Source of the DNA: Candidatus Magnetominusculus dajiuhuensis
GTDB taxonomy: Bacteria > Nitrospirota > Thermodesulfovibrionia > Thermodesulfovibrionales > Magnetobacteriaceae
Reading direction: 5' to 3'
Assembly (NCBI GenBank): GCA_015233465.1
Contig: JADFXP010000010.1
Span: forward strand, 1-64,000
Length of the DNA stretch: 64,000 nucleotides
The notes under the pieces are model-generated. The model saw only the letters and a program-made list of their open reading frames with translations, did not search any database and was not told the origin of the DNA. This document shows positions 17,063 through 51,801 of this stretch, one piece after another (within the stretch, counting starts at the first letter, position 1; every line of letters begins with the position of its first letter). The position numbers and the translations under genes are program-made.

Positions 17063-18095
17063 TATTATCCACCTCATATTCTTTATAATTAACTATATTT
17101 ATTTCATTTTTTAACAATTGAGTAAATTTAATATTCTTATTTTCAATAAAACATACTCGTTTATCAAGGGATGAATTAGGATAAAATAAAATTAATTTAT
17201 CTTGATAATAACCAATTAAAGCAAAACGGCCATTTCTACTAATATTTCGTATATCAGCATCTATGTCTTTCTCAAGACTTATCTTTATTAATTGATACGT
17301 TAAAAGCTTCGAAAACTTATATGACATTAATAAAGTAGTTATATTAAATATATATAATAATATACACAACAAAAGCAAAATTTTAATAATAATTTTATTT
17401 TTCTCTTTAAAAACAATCTTGAATTTATCAACAGGATTAATCCATAAGAATAAAAAAGTGAAAAAAATAACAATAAAAAATATAATATAATACTCTATTA
17501 ACAATTGTTCAGATTTATGGTTAATATTATTATAAATAATCCCACAAGTATATCGTTTAAATAAATCTGTAAATAAAATACCTTCTCGTGGAATACTATT
17601 TATTCCATTTTCTGATATTATGTGCACATAAATAATATATAAACAACTTAATAATATAAAGAAAATTGGTAACACATAAGTATTAACCGATTTTTTTTGA
17701 ACAATTTTAAGAAGAGTATCCTTTTTTATTAATAAAATTCCCCCTATTATTATTGTAATTACCAAAAGTACTAAAAAATAGTACAGCTTTTGTATATCCT
17801 TACATTCTTCAACAAATATCTTGACAAATACAACTATTCCTGGGACTAAACCAATAATAGTATTATAAAAAAAAGTAGCTCCCTCAATAAAATACTGATC
17901 ATATGTAAAGTTTATATGGGTAATCCCTAAAAAATTATAATAACTTCTTAATATTATAAAACCACATACATAAAATAAAGCTGACAATACAGCAACGAGA
18001 GATATTATATATGTAAAATATTTAGTTGTCTGTTCTATCCCATGGTTTTTGTCAGGTTTCTGCTCTGTTTCTTGATTTTTTCTATCGTCTCCCAT
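17049..18095 (-). CDS. Integral membrane protein of unknown function
   Basis: The 348-residue protein has a charged cytoplasmic N-terminus (MGDDRKNQETEQKPDKN), then about six membrane helices in the first 245 residues. A soluble C-terminal part follows with short beta-rich stretches (RNGRFALIGYYQDKLILFYP) that look like a small extracytoplasmic or cytoplasmic domain. No family is recognised. It is unusually AT-rich even for this window. It is paired with the small secreted protein downstream, and the two may form a transferred or fast-evolving unit. Confidence 0.6.
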   Translation of the reverse strand: MGDDRKNQETEQKPDKNHGIEQTTKYFTYIISLVAVLSALFYVCGFIILRSYYNFLGITHINFTYDQYFIEGATFFYNTIIGLVPGIVVFVKIFVEECKDIQKLYYFLVLLVITIIIGGILLIKKDTLLKIVQKKSVNTYVLPIFFILLSCLYIIYVHIISENGINSIPREGILFTDLFKRYTCGIIYNNINHKSEQLLIEYYIIFFIVIFFTFLFLWINPVDKFKIVFKEKNKIIIKILLLLCILLYIFNITTLLMSYKFSKLLTYQLIKISLEKDIDADIRNISRNGRFALIGYYQDKLILFYPNSSLDKRVCFIENKNIKFTQLLKNEINIVNYKEYEVDNNVHC

Positions 18096-18206
18096 TAAAC
18101 TCCCCCAACAAGTATATCTTTAATACAGTTTATAGTAATTACATACTAATGTCAAAGAATAAATACAGTCTACCAAAAAGATTTATTCTTGTAACCCTTT
18201 AATACT

Positions 18207-18377
18207 AAGTTGCAACCATAGAAGTAATTTAGTTATAGTAATTATCAAAAATATATATTCACATAGAAAAGTAGGGGCAGCCCTTGTGGCTGCCCTGTTT
18301 TGCGTTTAATCTACATGTAATCAGGGTAACCACAAGGGTTACCCCTACGAAATACGGTTAAAAAATAGAATTAACTA
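18207..18377 (+). repeat. Second dispersed repeat family, copy 1
   Basis: A core of GTAGGGGCAGCCC and GGCTGCCCTGTTTTGCG leads to GGGTAACC / GGTTACCCCTACG and the tail TACGAAATACGGTT, ATAGAATTAA. The other copy is inverted at 51895-52016. The flanks AAGTTGC and TATATATTCA are shared too. With the copy of family 1 that follows, this fills the gene-free 18096-18470. Confidence 0.7.
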
Positions 18378-18385
18378 AATTTTCT

Positions 18386-18460
18386 AAAATTATGGGTTCA
18401 AAGGAACGAGTCCCTTTGCGGGAGCCATCCCTAAAGGGAGCCCTTGGGCAGAGCCCTCAT
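18386..18460. repeat. Dispersed palindromic repeat, one-arm copy (D)
   Basis: TATGGGTTCAAAGGAACGAG, TCCCTTTGCGGGAG and TCCCTAAAGGGA lead into GGGCAGAGCCCTCAT. It abuts the 3' end of the cyclase gene (stop at 18471). Confidence 0.8.
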
Positions 18461-18470
18461 GTAGATGCCT

Positions 18471-21416
18471 TTAAATAAACTGCAAATATAACGACTTAAT
18501 CGTAGAAAGTAATTCTATTAAATGACCTATCTCTTTTTCATTTAGCACAATCCCTTGTTCTTTCAATGAGGAGAGAAACGATTCAAGGTCTGAGGCATTC
18601 CAATCGCCCTTAGTTTTCCTAATCAATTTCGCGCTATTACCGCAAACCGTTGAGTGGGCCTCTTTGATTGAGATCACCCTATAAAACCGTCTTGCAGCCT
18701 CAAGTATCTTTTCCAGGGACTTAGTTATTTCCTGTGAGCAATAGAGTCCATCATTCTTCATTTTATCCAAAAACTTTATCCAAGCCTCATTTTCACCTTG
18801 AGAGCTGTTATCTCTGGCAAATATTGTTACAATCTCTACTAATGCATCAAACTTGCCAATAATATCTGTATAAAATTGATAATTATTTCGACCCTGTTCC
18901 TTTGCCCTATAGAGCGCAATATCTGCTCGTTTTACAACATTGGAAATATCGTCTTCCATACTATCTTTTTCATAGGGGTAAACACAAATGCCAATGCTTG
19001 TGCCTATGGAACAGATTTTGCCTTGTATATTAAAAGGTTTGTTTATCAAAGAGATAATTCTATCTGCAATATATGCAGCATCTTCTTTCTTGTCTATTTT
19101 AGTTAAAATAATATTAAACTCATCTCCTCCCATACGCGCTACTGTATCTGTTTCCCTGACTACCTCTTTGAATACCTCTCCTACTTCTTTTAAGAGTATA
19201 TCGCCAATATCATGACCGAGCGAGTCATTGACTATCTTGAACTTATCAAGGTCAAGATATAAAAGTGCAAAACTAGTCTTATTACGCTTAGACATGGCTA
19301 CAGCGCTTTTAAGATGATCATAAAATAGCGCGCGGTTTGGAAGCCCTGTTAGTGAGTCATAATGGGCAAGCTCTTTAAGTCTTTTCTCAAATTGTTTTCG
19401 CTCTGTAATATTTCGTAAAACGTAAACTACCTGTGTAATTTCACCATTATTATTCCTAATTGGTGATGTATTGCACTCTACGTAGATTTCATTTCCATTT
19501 TTATCTATATGAATATGCTCACAACTAGCATAATCACCATCATTAAGGGTGTCTTCAATCGGACATTGGATATTGTTCTCTTTACATAATGAATGCTGCT
19601 TGTACAATACTTCATGACATGTTTTTTTGCCAATAATCTCATCAGGTATAAGGGAGTATTCTTTAAAGAAAATATGATTGGCTTTGAGTATCTTAAAATC
19701 CTTTGCATCAATTACTAAAATGGAGTCGTGCATACTATCAATTATTGTGGATATAAACTCTTCCGAGCGTCTGATCATCTCTTCTGCCTTGTCGCGATTA
19801 ATTATCCCAGCTAGCGTATTGGCTACAGCAATGAGGAAATCTTCTTCGGATTTCTCTCGTTTATGACTATGTTTAACATAAAGATTAAGAACTCCTAAAA
19901 TAGTGGCACCTGAAAGAATTGGTATACAGTAATGACCATGGGGTTCCATTCCCTCAAAACCCACATCATGTAAATCATTCACACAATCATAAAATACTAC
20001 GCTTCGAGTAGAGGCAGCAAGACCGCAAAGACATTTACCAAAAGGTAATCTCTTGCACTCTATAAGCAGCGCTTCATTAAGCCGCCTCTGAGCTGCCATC
20101 ACAATCACTTCTGGATTATTATTGTCTATAAGAAATATGCTCCCTTTTTTCTGAACCGTAAACCAAGGAAGGGATAAGATTAAATCCAATGCGCTTTCTA
20201 ACTTACTCTTGAGTGGAATATTCTCAAGTGAAATCTTTAAAACCATACTTATTACATTTTGAATATCAAAATTACGTATCATTTGATCTTTAACAAGTTT
20301 ATTTTCAATAATTTCCTGTTCTAATTTAACATTTACATTTTGTAAGTCAGATGTCCTTTCCTTAACTGTATTCTCTAAAATAATATTATGATCATGTAAT
20401 CTCCTATCTATCCTGCTTAAAACCTTATAAAAAACCCATAGAATTAATAATACAAGCAATAAACTTATTACTATCGCCAGAGAAAATGACTTTATATCTT
20501 CTTTAAACTTATGGGTATAAATATCCGTAAAGACTATAATTCCAACTTCTTTTCCACTTGCATCAATCAAGGGGAAAAATCCAATATTGTATCTATTATC
20601 ATTAGAGGACTGATTAAGATATATATGCTGAATCTTAAAGTCATCATTATTAAATATTTTTTTCAAACAATCTGGGACATTTTTCTGAGAGGTATTATTA
20701 ATAACATAATTCGGCATCATATTCCAATCGCTTTTAAATCCTAGCATCTTCATCCCTGTCAACCAATTATCTTGTTTAATAAATCGTTTATCTATTAACA
20801 CATAAGGCTCTACCTCAATTGTATTTTTTATCCTTTGAACAATGGGATTTATATCCATTCCCAGTTCAATGAAACCAATTAGTTTATTATTTAGATACCT
20901 TGGAGTGACCACTCTTAATGTAAATGTCCCAAGCATTCCAAGTTCTATCCCAAATGCAGGTTTGCCAGTTTTCTCAGCCTCAATACACGTATAACGATCA
21001 ACCTTATCTCCAAATAGATCAATATCATGTAACCGAAGAATATTTATACGATCAGAATCAATAAATGTGAAATGTGTAATATTGTATTTTGAAGAAAGAT
21101 GATTAAATATTGATGCACCAATTTGTTTAAGGGAATCGCGATCTTTATTGACTAATGCAGTTTCTAATTCACGATTACTTATAATCGGTTCAATCAGCCC
21201 TTCTAATAATTTAGCGTCTTTTTCAATATCTTCTTTTAATATCTTTTCAGAAGAATATAATTTATGAGAGACATCATCTTGTAATTCTCTTTTTTGGTGA
21301 GCATAAAATACTGTAACGGTTATAATAAAAAGGATGGCAAATACAATTACTAAAAAAGGCAAAATTCTAACGACAAGACTCTTTTCAGCTACAGCTCTAT
21401 CTTCAATATTATTCAT
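18471..21416 (-). CDS. Cache-GAF-PAS-GGDEF diguanylate cyclase
   Basis: The 981-residue membrane protein has a helix at 17-40, a large periplasmic double-Cache-like sensor (to about 300), a second helix near 305-325 and a coiled coil. A GAF domain (about 380-530) carries GKCLCG and HGHYCIPI. PAS (about 540-660) and GGDEF (about 675-840) follow. The active site reads ARMGGDEF (GGDEF at 763-767), and RETD lies five residues before it, so the inhibitory I-site is intact. It should make c-di-GMP with product feedback. About 130 helical residues follow the cyclase domain and are unassigned. It directly follows the RACo-like gene (adjacent stop and start), so the two are probably one operon. Confidence 0.88.
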   Translation of the reverse strand: MNNIEDRAVAEKSLVVRILPFLVIVFAILFIITVTVFYAHQKRELQDDVSHKLYSSEKILKEDIEKDAKLLEGLIEPIISNRELETALVNKDRDSLKQIGASIFNHLSSKYNITHFTFIDSDRINILRLHDIDLFGDKVDRYTCIEAEKTGKPAFGIELGMLGTFTLRVVTPRYLNNKLIGFIELGMDINPIVQRIKNTIEVEPYVLIDKRFIKQDNWLTGMKMLGFKSDWNMMPNYVINNTSQKNVPDCLKKIFNNDDFKIQHIYLNQSSNDNRYNIGFFPLIDASGKEVGIIVFTDIYTHKFKEDIKSFSLAIVISLLLVLLILWVFYKVLSRIDRRLHDHNIILENTVKERTSDLQNVNVKLEQEIIENKLVKDQMIRNFDIQNVISMVLKISLENIPLKSKLESALDLILSLPWFTVQKKGSIFLIDNNNPEVIVMAAQRRLNEALLIECKRLPFGKCLCGLAASTRSVVFYDCVNDLHDVGFEGMEPHGHYCIPILSGATILGVLNLYVKHSHKREKSEEDFLIAVANTLAGIINRDKAEEMIRRSEEFISTIIDSMHDSILVIDAKDFKILKANHIFFKEYSLIPDEIIGKKTCHEVLYKQHSLCKENNIQCPIEDTLNDGDYASCEHIHIDKNGNEIYVECNTSPIRNNNGEITQVVYVLRNITERKQFEKRLKELAHYDSLTGLPNRALFYDHLKSAVAMSKRNKTSFALLYLDLDKFKIVNDSLGHDIGDILLKEVGEVFKEVVRETDTVARMGGDEFNIILTKIDKKEDAAYIADRIISLINKPFNIQGKICSIGTSIGICVYPYEKDSMEDDISNVVKRADIALYRAKEQGRNNYQFYTDIIGKFDALVEIVTIFARDNSSQGENEAWIKFLDKMKNDGLYCSQEITKSLEKILEAARRFYRVISIKEAHSTVCGNSAKLIRKTKGDWNASDLESFLSSLKEQGIVLNEKEIGHLIELLSTIKSLYLQFI

Positions 21417-46754: not shown

Positions 46755-48242
46755 ATGAATACATATGAAAGAATCTGTAATTATGAGAAAAAATTACATC
46801 CCTTAGCTCAAAAAAGCGATCTTGCTGAAAGAAAAGAGCCCTTATATGATGAAAGATATAAAACAGCTTGCAGGTCACTTTTTGGACGTGATCGTGATAG
46901 AATTATTTTTTGTAGTCCATTCAGAAGATTGATGCATAAAACACAATTATATGTCTCATTTGGTTTAAGTGAACATAACAGAACAAGATTAACTCACACT
47001 GTAGAAGTTGTACAAATTTCAAGAGCGATAGCTAAAGGTTTAAATATGAACGAGGAATTAGTAGAAGCAATAGCATATGGCCATGATATAGGGCATGCTC
47101 CTTTTGGTCATGCTGGGGAACGATTAATTAATGGATATCTAAATGGGCAAGAAGCTATGCCTCATAGATTAACTGAAATGGCAGGCAAACAATTAACACC
47201 TATAAAATTAACAAATTTTAAACATAATTTTCAAAGTGTACGAATATTAAATGATTTAGAAATATATCATACTTATTATAATGGACTGAATTTAACATAT
47301 ACTGTGTTAGAAGGCATATTAAAACATACATCAATTTACATGAAAGATACAATAAGCCAATATTTGTATCCTGACATAACTGATAACGATAATATGAAGA
47401 ATAAACTCTTCTTGAATAATGAATTTTCTATAAGCGTAGAAGGCCAAATAGTTGCTATTGCAGATGAAATTGCTCAAGTTACTCATGATATTAATGATGC
47501 TTTAAGGATGGAAATGTTAAAGATAGAAGATATAACAAAATTCGATGAAATAAAAAAAGTTTTTAGTGATGATAAAACGCGTATTCCACTTTCAAATATT
47601 AAACCTGATTTTTTTAATGCTCAGATTATGCCTTCATTATTAAACCATTTTATAGTTTTTGTTATAAATGAAATGCAACCTCGCTTAGAAAAATTATCAA
47701 AAGGAAAAAACTTTGATAAATCAAATATAATCCTTGAGAATTGGATTTTAAAATCAAAGGATAAAATAAATGATCCCGCTTTTAATATCCTGAAGCAATT
47801 AAAACACGAGGTTGTTCTAAATTCTTTTTATGTTATCCGTATGGATAATAAAGGTCTAAAAAATATTCGAAAGTTATTTGATGAATATCTAACTAATATA
47901 CTACAAGTACCAGATTCAGTACTTGATAATTATTTTGAACATAAAAATATAGAAACTAAACATTTAGATTTAGTCCAATTCTCTAAATCTATAAAGGGAA
48001 ATGAAATACATTTCGATATCAAAAATAAGTTAACAGACAAAGACATTGAAGTTTTTTATAACTTTATCATAGGCAAAAACGAAAAAAAGAGAACAGAAAA
48101 TAGTTTCCGATTATTATCATATGATCTAATTAAAAAATTGCAACCTCATTTTGCAATTGATTCGATTTTTTTACGCTCAATTGCTGATCATATTTCGGGA
48201 ATGACTGATTTTGATTGCCAAAAAGAAGCAAATGAATTTTAA
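46755..48242 (+). CDS. dgt: dGTPase-like deoxynucleoside triphosphohydrolase
   Basis: The 495-residue HD-domain protein has FCSPFRRLMHKTQLYVSFG, then RTRLTHTVEVVQISRAIAKG with H81 and AIAYGHDIGHAPFGHAGE with H110/D111, the metal site of Dgt-type enzymes. Family members cut dGTP or other dNTPs to deoxynucleosides and triphosphate, controlling the dNTP pool or phage resistance. The 10-bp sequence ATGAATACAT is tandemly duplicated over the start. AAGGAG is 2 nt from the first ATG (46745, a 7-codon frame ending in TGA) and 12 nt from the real one. No neighbour suggests a phage-defence island. Confidence 0.88.
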   Translation: MNTYERICNYEKKLHPLAQKSDLAERKEPLYDERYKTACRSLFGRDRDRIIFCSPFRRLMHKTQLYVSFGLSEHNRTRLTHTVEVVQISRAIAKGLNMNEELVEAIAYGHDIGHAPFGHAGERLINGYLNGQEAMPHRLTEMAGKQLTPIKLTNFKHNFQSVRILNDLEIYHTYYNGLNLTYTVLEGILKHTSIYMKDTISQYLYPDITDNDNMKNKLFLNNEFSISVEGQIVAIADEIAQVTHDINDALRMEMLKIEDITKFDEIKKVFSDDKTRIPLSNIKPDFFNAQIMPSLLNHFIVFVINEMQPRLEKLSKGKNFDKSNIILENWILKSKDKINDPAFNILKQLKHEVVLNSFYVIRMDNKGLKNIRKLFDEYLTNILQVPDSVLDNYFEHKNIETKHLDLVQFSKSIKGNEIHFDIKNKLTDKDIEVFYNFIIGKNEKKRTENSFRLLSYDLIKKLQPHFAIDSIFLRSIADHISGMTDFDCQKEANEF

Positions 48243-48365: not shown

Positions 48366-49949
48366 ATGAATGAAAATTATTTTTTAATAACATACGAATT
48401 CACCTCAACATCTCCTCAAGATGCAGAAACCCTTGCCAAAGAAATCGCCCTTGAACAGACCGTTGAACTGCCCCAAACCCTCATCAAATCGCAATTCATA
48501 GAAACTGAAATAATCGGCTCTGTACAATCAATCAATCAATCATCCCTTGACAGATACCGTGCAGTTATCGCTTATAACCCAGAGATAACCGGTTTTCAAA
48601 TACCTCAATTTTTAAATGTCCTTTACGGAAATATCTCTATAAAAACCAATATCCGCATTGTTGCTCTCTCGCTCCCTAAGCAGTTTTTAGTCAGATTCAA
48701 GGGCGCTAACTTTGGAGTAAATGGGATAAGGAATATTACAGGCGTAAGAGGCAGACCGCTTCTATGCACAGCCTTAAAACCAATGGGTGCAAGCCCTCAA
48801 GAATTTGCTAAGATGGCTAAGGAATTCGCACTTGGCGGAGGGGATATTTTAAAGGATGATCATGGATTAATTGATCATTCATTTAGTTCATTTCATGAAC
48901 GAGTTTCAAGATGTCAGGAGACAATAATTGAAACTGCGCAAAAGACTGGGAAAGTTACACTCTATTTCCCAAATATCCTTGCCCCATTTGAACAGATGGA
49001 GGAGCAGATTGCATTTACCGTAAAACTTGGAATAAAGGGGATACTGCTTTCGCCGTTTCTGATTGGGCTTGATATGGTCAGATATATTGCTAAAAAATAT
49101 AATCTCATCATAATGCTTCATCCTGCACTCACTGGGACGCATTTTAATGACTTAAGACATGGCATTGCCCCTGAAATTTTGCTTGGCACAATATTTCGTC
49201 TTATTGGAGGGGATATTTCAATATTCCCTAACCATGGCGGGAGGTTTAATCTGACCATAGAACAGTGTAAGGCAATCAGCGTTTCACTCTCTCAACCGCT
49301 TGCAGAAATAAAGCCTGCCCTGCCCTGCCCTGCTGGCGGAATGGGGATAGATAATATTAAAGCTATGTCATCATTATATGGAGAAGATGTAATATTTCTT
49401 ATCGGAGGGTCGCTTCATGGTTATTCTGACAACCTAACAATTAATACTCAGACCTTCAAAGATGAGATAAGAAAACACTTTCCTGATAGTACTGAATCAA
49501 AAGTAGAAACATTAGATGTTGTAAGTTCATGCGAAATTAATAATCCCATAAAAGAATCAATAAAAGAACATCTAATCTTCAATGATGATTTCACATGGAC
49601 TGGAAGAGGCATTACTGAATATAAGAAAATGGATAATCCTAATTATTATAATATAAAAAGACAGGAGCTTATTGGGAGGTTTGGGGAAAAAACCGCCTTT
49701 GATCTAAGGTATTTTGAGATTGCTCCAGATGGATTTTCCTCAAAAGAACGCCATGTGCATGAACATGTCATTATTTGCATATGCGGAAATGGGGAATTAA
49801 TTATTGAAGATATTTCTATTACTCTAAAACCATTTGATATAACCTATGTCCAGCCGTTAAAGACACATCAACTCAGAAATAACAGTAAAGAACCATTTGG
49901 ATTTTTTTGTATAGTAGACCATATTAGAGATCGTCCGATAATAGATTAA
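48366..49949 (+). CDS. RuBisCO-like protein (form IV) fused to a C-terminal cupin
   Basis: Residues 1-410 are a RuBisCO large-subunit fold: GVRGRPLLCTALKPMGASP with K138 (matching active-site Lys175), GGGDILKDDHGLIDHSFSSF with K163 (matching the carbamylated Lys201) but His166 in place of Glu204, HPALTGTHF, FPNHGGRFN in place of loop 6 with its Lys334, CPAGGMGIDNI and LIGGSLHG. Loss of key residues rules out CO2 fixation and marks a form IV RuBisCO-like protein. Residues 440-527 are a cupin with RHVHEHV (H463, H465, H467) and PLKTHQLRNN (H501). In Rhodospirillum rubrum, a RuBisCO-like isomerase and a separate cupin act in sequence on 5-methylthioribulose-1-phosphate. ATG 48366 follows an in-frame stop and has no good ribosome site. 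Confidence 0.85.
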   Translation: MNENYFLITYEFTSTSPQDAETLAKEIALEQTVELPQTLIKSQFIETEIIGSVQSINQSSLDRYRAVIAYNPEITGFQIPQFLNVLYGNISIKTNIRIVALSLPKQFLVRFKGANFGVNGIRNITGVRGRPLLCTALKPMGASPQEFAKMAKEFALGGGDILKDDHGLIDHSFSSFHERVSRCQETIIETAQKTGKVTLYFPNILAPFEQMEEQIAFTVKLGIKGILLSPFLIGLDMVRYIAKKYNLIIMLHPALTGTHFNDLRHGIAPEILLGTIFRLIGGDISIFPNHGGRFNLTIEQCKAISVSLSQPLAEIKPALPCPAGGMGIDNIKAMSSLYGEDVIFLIGGSLHGYSDNLTINTQTFKDEIRKHFPDSTESKVETLDVVSSCEINNPIKESIKEHLIFNDDFTWTGRGITEYKKMDNPNYYNIKRQELIGRFGEKTAFDLRYFEIAPDGFSSKERHVHEHVIICICGNGELIIEDISITLKPFDITYVQPLKTHQLRNNSKEPFGFFCIVDHIRDRPIID

Positions 49950-50030
49950 TGGGTTCAAGGGGTCTTAGACCCCCGGGACAAGTCCCTTTGCGGGTGCCCG
50001 TAGATGAAAAGGGCAGAGCCCTCATTCTTT
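49947..50030. repeat. Dispersed palindromic repeat, one-arm copy (J)
   Basis: AATGGGTTCAAGGGGTCTTAG, GGGACAAGTCCC and GGGCAGAGCCCTCATTCTTTA lie between the convergent RuBisCO-like and caspase-FGE genes. The fusion's stop codon (TAA at 49947) is its first base triplet. Confidence 0.8.
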
Positions 50031-51801
50031 AATCTCTTATCAGACGAAACCCGACACCATAGCGAACATCTGGGGAATAGCTGAAACGGTAGGCACAACG
50101 AGTAGTATCAGAGGAATAGCTCCAACCGCCGCCACGCACAACTCTGCCGCTGCCAACTAAGTCATATACTGGATTATTGCGGGTATGCTGACTATAAGCC
50201 ATCGGATCGTACCAATCCTGCACCCACTCCCAGACATTTCCGCTCATATCAAATATATTAAGACCGTTCGGAGATTTTGTGCCTACTGGATGAATCTTAC
50301 CAGTTGAATTAGCATTATACCATGCAAAATTATCAATCAAATTGCCGCCAGAGTATTTCTCGCTCTTACCGCCGCTTCTGCAGGCATATTCCCACTGCGC
50401 CTCTGACGGCAGACGATATTTACTATTTGTCAATTTATTCAACTCCCTTATAAAGTCTTGGACATCATTCCAACTTACATTTTCTACAGGACAATTGTCT
50501 CCACAATTACCATAAAATGATGGATTTTTGCCTGTAATCTTCTTCCATTGTCCCTGAGTTACCTCATACCTTCCAATATAAAAATCATCTAAACATACCT
50601 CATGCACAGGCTTTTCTTCAATTTGAGTGTTGGTAAAGGTATCTCCCATCTGATAACAACCGCCCTTGACTAAAACCATCTCTATACCTGTAATAGATTC
50701 TGTAAAAATAGGCTCTTTTGCGCTCAAAACTGGAGGACGGCTAGCCATCGCTACCTCTGTCTGTTGAGTTGATTGTTTAAACTTTTCAAGCTGTTTTATC
50801 TTTGCACGCGCAAGAGGGGCAAGGCTGCTATTTGGAAATTCGGACAAAAACTCTTTATAATCTGCCGGGTCTATAGAATTTTTTATAGTCGCCCATGTCT
50901 CTTTTTCAATGTTCACATCCTGAGTCTTAGTAGGTATTGCTGATTGTAATTGATTTGATACTATAACATTAGAGTCTAGCTTAAAATAAAAATCACCTCT
51001 CATATTTGATGCTATCCAAGGCACTTGATTCGCATTTTTATCTTGTACTGCCCCTGAAACATCCTTAAACACATCCTCTATTTTTAGTCCAGGCTTCTCC
51101 ATGCTTTTCAGTAATTCCTGCGTAAAAAGTCCATTCTTACCGTCTCCATCGCTTGCTACAGATCCAGGGCCTGTAGCATAAGCAATAAATGTACCCTTAG
51201 GGGCATTCATCATTGCAAGCCCCCCTCCTCCAGATGACCTAAATCCTTTAAATGGATTATCACGACAAGCGTCAAGAATAACGATATTCAGCCGATTTCT
51301 TGCATCAGCCATCTTATTAAGCACAATATTAGCACGCAGTCCGTCAGAGTCTACGTCACCTTCTGAATGAATTTCCGCATCTACAGGAATCAGAAAATTC
51401 TCACCATTGACCTGTATTCCGTGTCCTGCAAAATAAAATAATCCAACGCCTCCGTCCTTTATCTCATCTCCAAATTGATTGACGATTTTTCTCATAGCCT
51501 TTTGGGTAAGATTAAAGCCTGATATAACCTTAAAATTAAGTCCTTCTAATTCTCTAGCCATAGCCTTAGCGTCATTTACAGGGTTTCTAAGGGTCTTAAT
51601 ATTATGATACTCTGCATTTCCGATAACAAGGGCTACACGTTTTTCACTCTGCATTGAATTTAGTTCTACTGAACGATTCTCTGAGGTTTGAGTGGTATCT
51701 TTTTTATTGGATACAGCTTTTTTGGATTTTGCGAAAACAGATGGCGTAATACAAAAAATAGATACAATTAATGATATAATCAATATCTTTTTCATCATCA
51801 A
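50029..51801 (-). CDS. Secreted caspase-like protein fused to a formylglycine-generating-enzyme-like domain
   Basis: A signal peptide (MKKILIISLIVSIFCITPSVFA) precedes a C14 caspase domain (55-275) that starts RVALVIGNAEYHN. H127 lies in FYFAGHG and C179 in VILDACRDNPF. The linker 300-355 contains a short helical segment, YKEFLSEFPNSSLAPLARAK. Residues 368-590 are an FGE-sulfatase (SUMF1-type) domain: VKGGCYQMGD, FYIGRYEVTQGQW, YRLPSEAQWEYACRSGG and GFRLIRD. Caspase-FGE fusions are known in bacteria, and the FGE part often acts as a ligand- or protein-binding module (C-type-lectin-like fold) rather than an enzyme. It is the second secreted caspase in the window. Confidence 0.88.
   Translation of the reverse strand: MMMKKILIISLIVSIFCITPSVFAKSKKAVSNKKDTTQTSENRSVELNSMQSEKRVALVIGNAEYHNIKTLRNPVNDAKAMARELEGLNFKVISGFNLTQKAMRKIVNQFGDEIKDGGVGLFYFAGHGIQVNGENFLIPVDAEIHSEGDVDSDGLRANIVLNKMADARNRLNIVILDACRDNPFKGFRSSGGGGLAMMNAPKGTFIAYATGPGSVASDGDGKNGLFTQELLKSMEKPGLKIEDVFKDVSGAVQDKNANQVPWIASNMRGDFYFKLDSNVIVSNQLQSAIPTKTQDVNIEKETWATIKNSIDPADYKEFLSEFPNSSLAPLARAKIKQLEKFKQSTQQTEVAMASRPPVLSAKEPIFTESITGIEMVLVKGGCYQMGDTFTNTQIEEKPVHEVCLDDFYIGRYEVTQGQWKKITGKNPSFYGNCGDNCPVENVSWNDVQDFIRELNKLTNSKYRLPSEAQWEYACRSGGKSEKYSGGNLIDNFAWYNANSTGKIHPVGTKSPNGLNIFDMSGNVWEWVQDWYDPMAYSQHTRNNPVYDLVGSGRVVRGGGWSYSSDTTRCAYRFSYSPDVRYGVGFRLIRD

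Follow-up and report, generated by a model that had tools for sequence, protein, structure and literature searches.

A RuBisCO-like protein fused to a cupin in a magnetotactic Nitrospirota bacterium, a probable one-chain enzyme of the MTA-isoprenoid shunt

Introduction

The MTA-isoprenoid shunt is known experimentally from purple bacteria, where it is carried out by two separate enzymes. In the window, i.e., the whole 64,000-nucleotide stretch of DNA analyzed here, a RuBisCO-like protein (RLP) and a cupin are encoded as one chain, and the question raised by this locus is whether the fused protein performs both steps. The answer that we favor, with a probability of about 0.75, is that it is a bifunctional 5-methylthioribulose-1-phosphate (MTRu-1P) isomerase and 1-methylthioxylulose-5-phosphate (MTXu-5P) methylsulfurylase that makes 1-deoxyxylulose-5-phosphate (DXP). 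An earlier note on this DNA had proposed such a one-piece shunt enzyme, and the proposal is now supported by the position of the RLP in a phylogenetic tree, by the homology of the cupin with Rru_A2000 and by the presence of mtnP and mtnA in the genome. Directly observed are the fusion itself and the fact that it is conserved, the clade to which each half belongs, the catalytic residues, and the genes for earlier and later pathway steps; we infer substrate and products from proven relatives, whose chemistry, proven only for separate homologues, probably carries over to the fused protein.

According to the proposed mechanism, MtnP and MtnA, whose genes lie in other parts of the genome, would convert 5'-methylthioadenosine (MTA) to MTRu-1P, and the N-terminal RLP, a member of the DeepYkr clade, would shift the carbonyl by 1,3-isomerization to yield MTXu-5P. 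In the C-terminal metal-dependent cupin a thiol would then take the methylthio group and leave DXP, which would enter isoprenoid synthesis by way of Dxr; methanethiol would be freed later from the mixed disulfide.

Results

Architecture of the fused protein

Both halves of the single open reading frame (Table 1) have Pfam matches above the curated cut-offs, i.e., RuBisCO_large at residues 118–355 (E 5.6e-26) and Cupin_2 at residues 449–516 (E 1.5e-8). An AlphaFold model of the fusion, built from 33 fused sequences (mean pLDDT 88.9), has two well-folded domains separated by a stretch predicted to be disordered at residues 376–398. An assembly or frameshift artefact is ruled out because the fusion recurs at full length in 15 further genomes of the family and, among 80 named loci, in 43 that span many phyla; the uninterrupted RLP-cupin fusion read from the sequence at the outset is thereby borne out.

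Table 1 Features of the fused gene and its immediate neighbors, in window coordinates
Feature	Positions	Strand	Basis or remark
Whole gene: DeepYkr-clade RLP fused to cupin	48366..49949	+	ATG to TAA, 527 aa, single ORF
RLP domain, residues 1–372, predicted 5-methylthioribulose-1-phosphate isomerase	48366..49481	+	3qfw match, tree
KDDH motif K163-D164-D165-H166: carbamylation Lys/metal site, Glu204 replaced by His	48852..48863	+	
Arg293 at the RuBisCO loop-6 Lys334 position	49242..49244	+	invariant in fused and adjacent-type rows
Interdomain linker, residues 376–398, predicted disordered	49491..49559	+	pLDDT <50
Cupin domain, residues 403–527, predicted 1-methylthioxylulose-5-phosphate methylsulfurylase	49572..49946	+	phmmer
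Cupin metal motif ERHVHEH (E461, H463, H465, H467)	49746..49766	+	invariant in 82 family cupins
His501, second cupin motif	49866..49868	+	family cupin alignment
Cys515 within FFCIVD motif	49908..49910	+	invariant in family
Upstream neighbor: HD-domain protein, dNTP triphosphohydrolase-like	46755..48242	+	no functional link seen
Downstream neighbor: caspase-like protease with FGE-sulfatase (formylglycine-generating-enzyme-type) domain	50029..51801	-	no functional link seen

Channeling between the two sites is a possibility suggested by the fusion itself. Within the favored reading, we give even odds to the case in which two functional domains share a chain with no channeling, and fusion provides only equal amounts and joint expression. 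Across 43 fused homologues the spacing between RLP and cupin ranges from 11 to 49 residues and this, together with the predicted disorder, gives the linker the appearance of a flexible tether that is not suggestive of a fixed tunnel; furthermore, many genomes keep the two genes adjacent and separate. Against this, the fusion persists as one lineage across many phyla and is probably useful for that reason, which does not in itself prove channeling.

The RuBisCO-like domain

The closest solved structure to the RLP domain by sequence, 3qfw (the DeepYkr RLP of R. palustris; E 4.8e-68), is also closest to the model by fold (TM-score normalised by target 0.94). The domain is 34% identical to R. palustris RLP1, and a tree of 95 RLPs, the placement called for in the earlier note, puts it in the DeepYkr clade that holds RLP1. 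MtnW branches outside the DeepYkr rows (support 99), and still more distant are OiaX, other RLPs, form I and form III-like RuBisCO; the separation from the photo-type RLP comes from PDB scores only.

R. palustris RLP1 is an MTRu-1P 1,3-isomerase, proven in vitro and in vivo, that turns MTRu-1P into MTXu-5P and MTRu-5P (PMC5893883). The window protein equals it at RuBisCO positions K175, K201, D203, H294, E204, R295 and K334. Alignment to RuBisCO confirms that K138 (K175 in RuBisCO numbering) and K163 (K201) are kept and that His166 replaces Glu204, as had been claimed; D165 (D203) and H294 are likewise kept, R295 is replaced by Pro253 and H327 by Ile286. The loop-6 Lys334 is indeed absent, and in its place is Arg293, a residue that had gone unmentioned and that is invariant in 43 of 43 fused and 26 of 26 adjacent-type rows. 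In 10 of these fused rows a Gln takes the place of His166. Cupin-less DeepYkr genes of other phyla adjoin mtnA or mtnP, which ties the clade to the product of MtnA.

Acid-sugar pathways had been named as the main alternative, which is not borne out, since OiaX lies outside the DeepYkr clade. The RuBisCO fold is common to all of these proteins and the RLP domain does have NCBIfam matches to the rival families, far below the cut-offs (MtnW 202 versus 409 and 147 versus 514; OiaX 88 versus 700), but the tree contradicts both an MtnW enolase and an OiaX-like decarboxylase/isomerase of the acid-sugar or apiose type. Both are also at odds with the motif, which is the DeepYkr-typical KDDH in the window and in RLP1 instead of the KDDE of the MtnW, OiaX and RuBisCO rows, and with a genome in which no MtnB-type gene is found. 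We consider such an activity highly improbable.

The cupin domain

A phmmer search gave only three close PDB relatives of the cupin, i.e., 3ibm (E 7e-25), 3jzv (Rru_A2000, a methylsulfurylase of proven activity; 5.1e-17) and 3kgz (8.8e-17), of which we take 3ibm to be a cupin from Halorhodospira halophila and 3kgz presumably to be the R. palustris cupin. The RLP and the cupin of R. rubrum are reported to have counterparts in H. halophila whose genes are similarly arranged (PMC4958253). Residues E461, H463, H465, H467, H501 and C515 are invariant in 82 family cupins, Rru_A2000 included. The four histidines proposed earlier as possible metal ligands are thus confirmed as invariant and joined by Glu461 and Cys515, and the suggested comparison with the R. 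rubrum methylsulfurylase finds a homologue with the metal-site residues kept.

The main doubt about the favored reading arises from other cupins. The fused cupin is 31% identical to Rru_A2000 and 44–50% identical to stand-alone Nitrospirota cupins that occur without an RLP. About 100 genomes of this order encode such a cupin and no DeepYkr RLP; these cupins keep all active-site residues, and several of the stand-alone genes (which include L048, L049 and L051–L054) adjoin a zinc alcohol dehydrogenase gene. If these closer relatives, which have no assigned role, act differently, the fused cupin might do so too. This doubt is countered by the physical linkage of cupin and RLP in 65 of 80 loci. 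In the cupin tree all fused cupins form a branch of their own (SH-aLRT 94), separate from the stand-alone cupins; deep forks, including the grouping with Rru_A2000 and RPA2170, are without resolution because the domain is short.

The same relationship lends something to an alternative in which the RLP is an MTA-type isomerase and the cupin performs another step (e.g., as an epimerase or isomerase, in binding or in regulation), so that no DXP-forming enzyme results: the fused cupin is nearer to the stand-alone cupins of this order than to Rru_A2000. However, its active-site residues are those of the methylsulfurylases, and the unfused neighbors of DeepYkr RLPs in the proven organisms are methylsulfurylases (PMC5893883). 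We regard this alternative as unlikely.

Distribution and origin of the fusion

The family is one of magnetotactic Nitrospirota, and its 15 other genomes noted above carry full-length fused copies with 49–58% identity; names among the fused carriers of the family are Candidatus Magnetocorallium, Magnetomicrobium, Magnetobacterium casense and Magnetominusculus. The 80 named loci are the best 80 of 247 from the genome collection and comprise 43 fusions, 22 pairs of adjacent genes, often overlapping by 4–8 bp, and 15 loci without a cupin nearby, shares that are not population estimates because the 80 loci are biased to close relatives. Fused members come from Nitrospirota, Firestonebacteria, FCPU426, Fibrobacterota, Planctomycetota, Hydrogenedentota and Gammaproteobacteria, i.e., at least seven phyla.

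A constraint that holds the fused rows together on the RLP tree is not rejected (p-AU 0.66) and its likelihood is even higher. Both halves, through the cupin branch and the RLP constraint, are compatible with one fusion event, after which the fused gene spread and in a few cases lost its cupin, and the fusion appears to represent one old lineage, present in at least seven bacterial phyla, magnetotactic bacteria included. Four RLPs within the fused clade (L092, L098, L109 and L129) have no cupin in the DNA covered and are probably secondary losses; for L120 the absence of a cupin is uncertain because its sequence reaches the contig end. A candidate fusion in G053 was rejected because a stop codon splits it into two genes.

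Two gammaproteobacterial genomes have fusions with about 220–260 extra N-terminal residues (L135 5161-7479 and L136 5266-7479). No Pfam family matches residues 1–266 of the L135 frame, whose start may be wrong.

Pathway genes in the genome

The window belongs to a 3.13 Mb draft genome that is 92.5% complete. The genome check for mtnP and mtnA proposed in the earlier note finds both: mtnA scores 433 bits, and two S-methyl-5'-thioadenosine phosphorylases (mtnP) lie above the curated cut-off, one of them adjoining a gene that by eye resembles adenine phosphoribosyltransferase. A futalosine hydrolase is encoded as well, as are dxs (828 bits) and dxr (480 bits). The presence of mtnA is necessary but weak evidence, since it is near-universal in the order (above cut-off in 134 of 149 genomes), and its co-occurrence with the RLP was discarded as uninformative for the same reason.

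Neither MtnB nor Ald2/DrdA was found in the 92.5% complete genome, in which the class II aldolase family is represented by one gene, of the bifunctional RhaD-dehydrogenase type, and this leaves the fused enzyme as the only recognized consumer of MTRu-1P here. The absence of a MetY-type or O-acetylhomoserine sulfhydrylase and of a trans-sulfuration enzyme (PF01053 matches of at most 39 bits over a short stretch), and that of an HcyBio protein, means that this genome lends no support to the later half of the R. rubrum route, in which methanethiol is captured as methionine; all these absences are soft because of the incompleteness of the assembly. Among relatives with separate genes, cysK lies directly downstream of the RLP-cupin pair in L047 and cysE beside it in L165, a hint that methanethiol may go to O-acetylserine.

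An alternative use of the pathway is salvage mainly of 5'-deoxyadenosine from radical SAM enzymes, in which the RLP would turn 5-deoxyribulose-1-phosphate directly into DXP and the cupin would have another role or deal with a methylthio side product only. The host lineage is apparently anaerobic, and 1,3-isomerization of 5-deoxyribulose-1-phosphate would chemically yield DXP. It is also plausible that salvage kinases and isomerases work in the 5-deoxyribose as well as the methylthioribose route (PMC6079011). What this alternative leaves unexplained is a methylsulfurylase-family cupin with an intact active site, fused to the RLP in 43 and adjacent to it in 22 of 80 loci, and we assign it a small probability.

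Gene neighborhoods

Operon evidence was sought in the window and dismissed, the neighbors (the HD protein, the caspase/FGE protein, FTHFS and a FeoB-like protein) giving no pathway hint. Elsewhere, neither mtnA nor mtnP is among the ORFs within 6 kb of fused genes. In three loci of one genus (L004, L007 and L011, from G008, G002 and G011) the gene immediately following the fused one encodes an LsrF-family aldolase; an aldolase of this family in L039 scores 508 bits (cut-off 297), and the window's genome has a homologue about 6 kb from mtnA (L035 274-1152).

Ten cupin-less DeepYkr-like RLPs (L159, L162, L163, L164, L166, L167, L160, L151, L158 and L168) adjoin split transketolase/DXS-like genes. 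Cupin-less loci of this kind are often accompanied by mtnA or mtnP, and in Acidimicrobiia also by an LsrF-like aldolase. The gene order suggests that at the cupin-less loci MTXu-5P can also leave the pathway through cleavage by a transketolase.

The genes hgcA and hgcB are mercury methylation genes. In two species of one genus, RLP, cupin, hgcA and hgcB lie head to tail on one strand (L043 7711-10666 in G020 and L046 4533-7488 in G061), with a gap of 18 bp between cupin and hgcA and with both hgc models above cut-off in L043; 30 other hgcA loci have neither an RLP nor a cupin within about 1.5 kb. Among 149 relatives, hgcA is above cut-off in 55 and shows no particular association with the fusion, and its co-occurrence was set aside. 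The window's genome itself encodes an hgcA (408 bits against a cut-off of 275) with an hgcB-like ferredoxin gene after it (L055 1190-2757; C18, ~17861-18844), so the organism may methylate mercury.

Discussion

The enzymes themselves are known; what is new is a one-chain, widely distributed arrangement of apparently single origin. The fusion is undescribed in the open-access literature searched; the founding papers (Erb 2012, Warlick 2012) are outside that literature, and an earlier mention there is possible. If the bifunctional reading holds, linking MTA recycling to DXP would be a widespread strategy, in at least seven phyla, that supplies DXP without Dxs, and the fused family would let one ask, in a natural setting, whether an intermediate is channeled when an RLP and a cupin are joined. 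Many proteins annotated so far only as RuBisCO C-terminal-like would also gain a likely function.

A more speculative extension, which we rate as doubtful, is a one-chain, oxygen-independent enzyme, widespread among anaerobic and little-studied phyla, that would pass MTXu-5P between its two sites, from RLP to cupin, employ a thiol other than glutathione and hand methanethiol to an acceptor other than O-acetylhomoserine, e.g., O-acetylserine via a CysK-type enzyme.

Compared with known systems, the fused RLP shares clade, fold, KDDH motif and active-site residues with R. palustris RLP1 and R. rubrum Rru_A1998 (PMC5893883, PMC4958253; 3qfw), which are encoded by separate genes, whereas in the window the RLP is part of one chain. 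The fused cupin has in common with Rru_A2000 and RPA2170 the family, the metal-site residues, Cys515 and the place beside a DeepYkr RLP; the latter two are, however, products of separate genes and glutathione-dependent, and the thiol of the window cupin is not necessarily glutathione. Adjacent RLP-cupin pairs in Gemmatimonadota, Ectothiorhodospiraceae and other Thermodesulfovibrionia (e.g., L132, L130 and L104) have the same genes in the same order, often with the 4–8 bp overlap, and differ in that the two proteins are separate chains. MtnBD of Tetrahymena (PMC3698126), an enzyme of ordinary methionine salvage, likewise fuses successive steps of MTA salvage, but it belongs to another pathway (dehydratase, enolase, phosphatase and dioxygenase steps), which is oxygen-dependent and involves no RLP.
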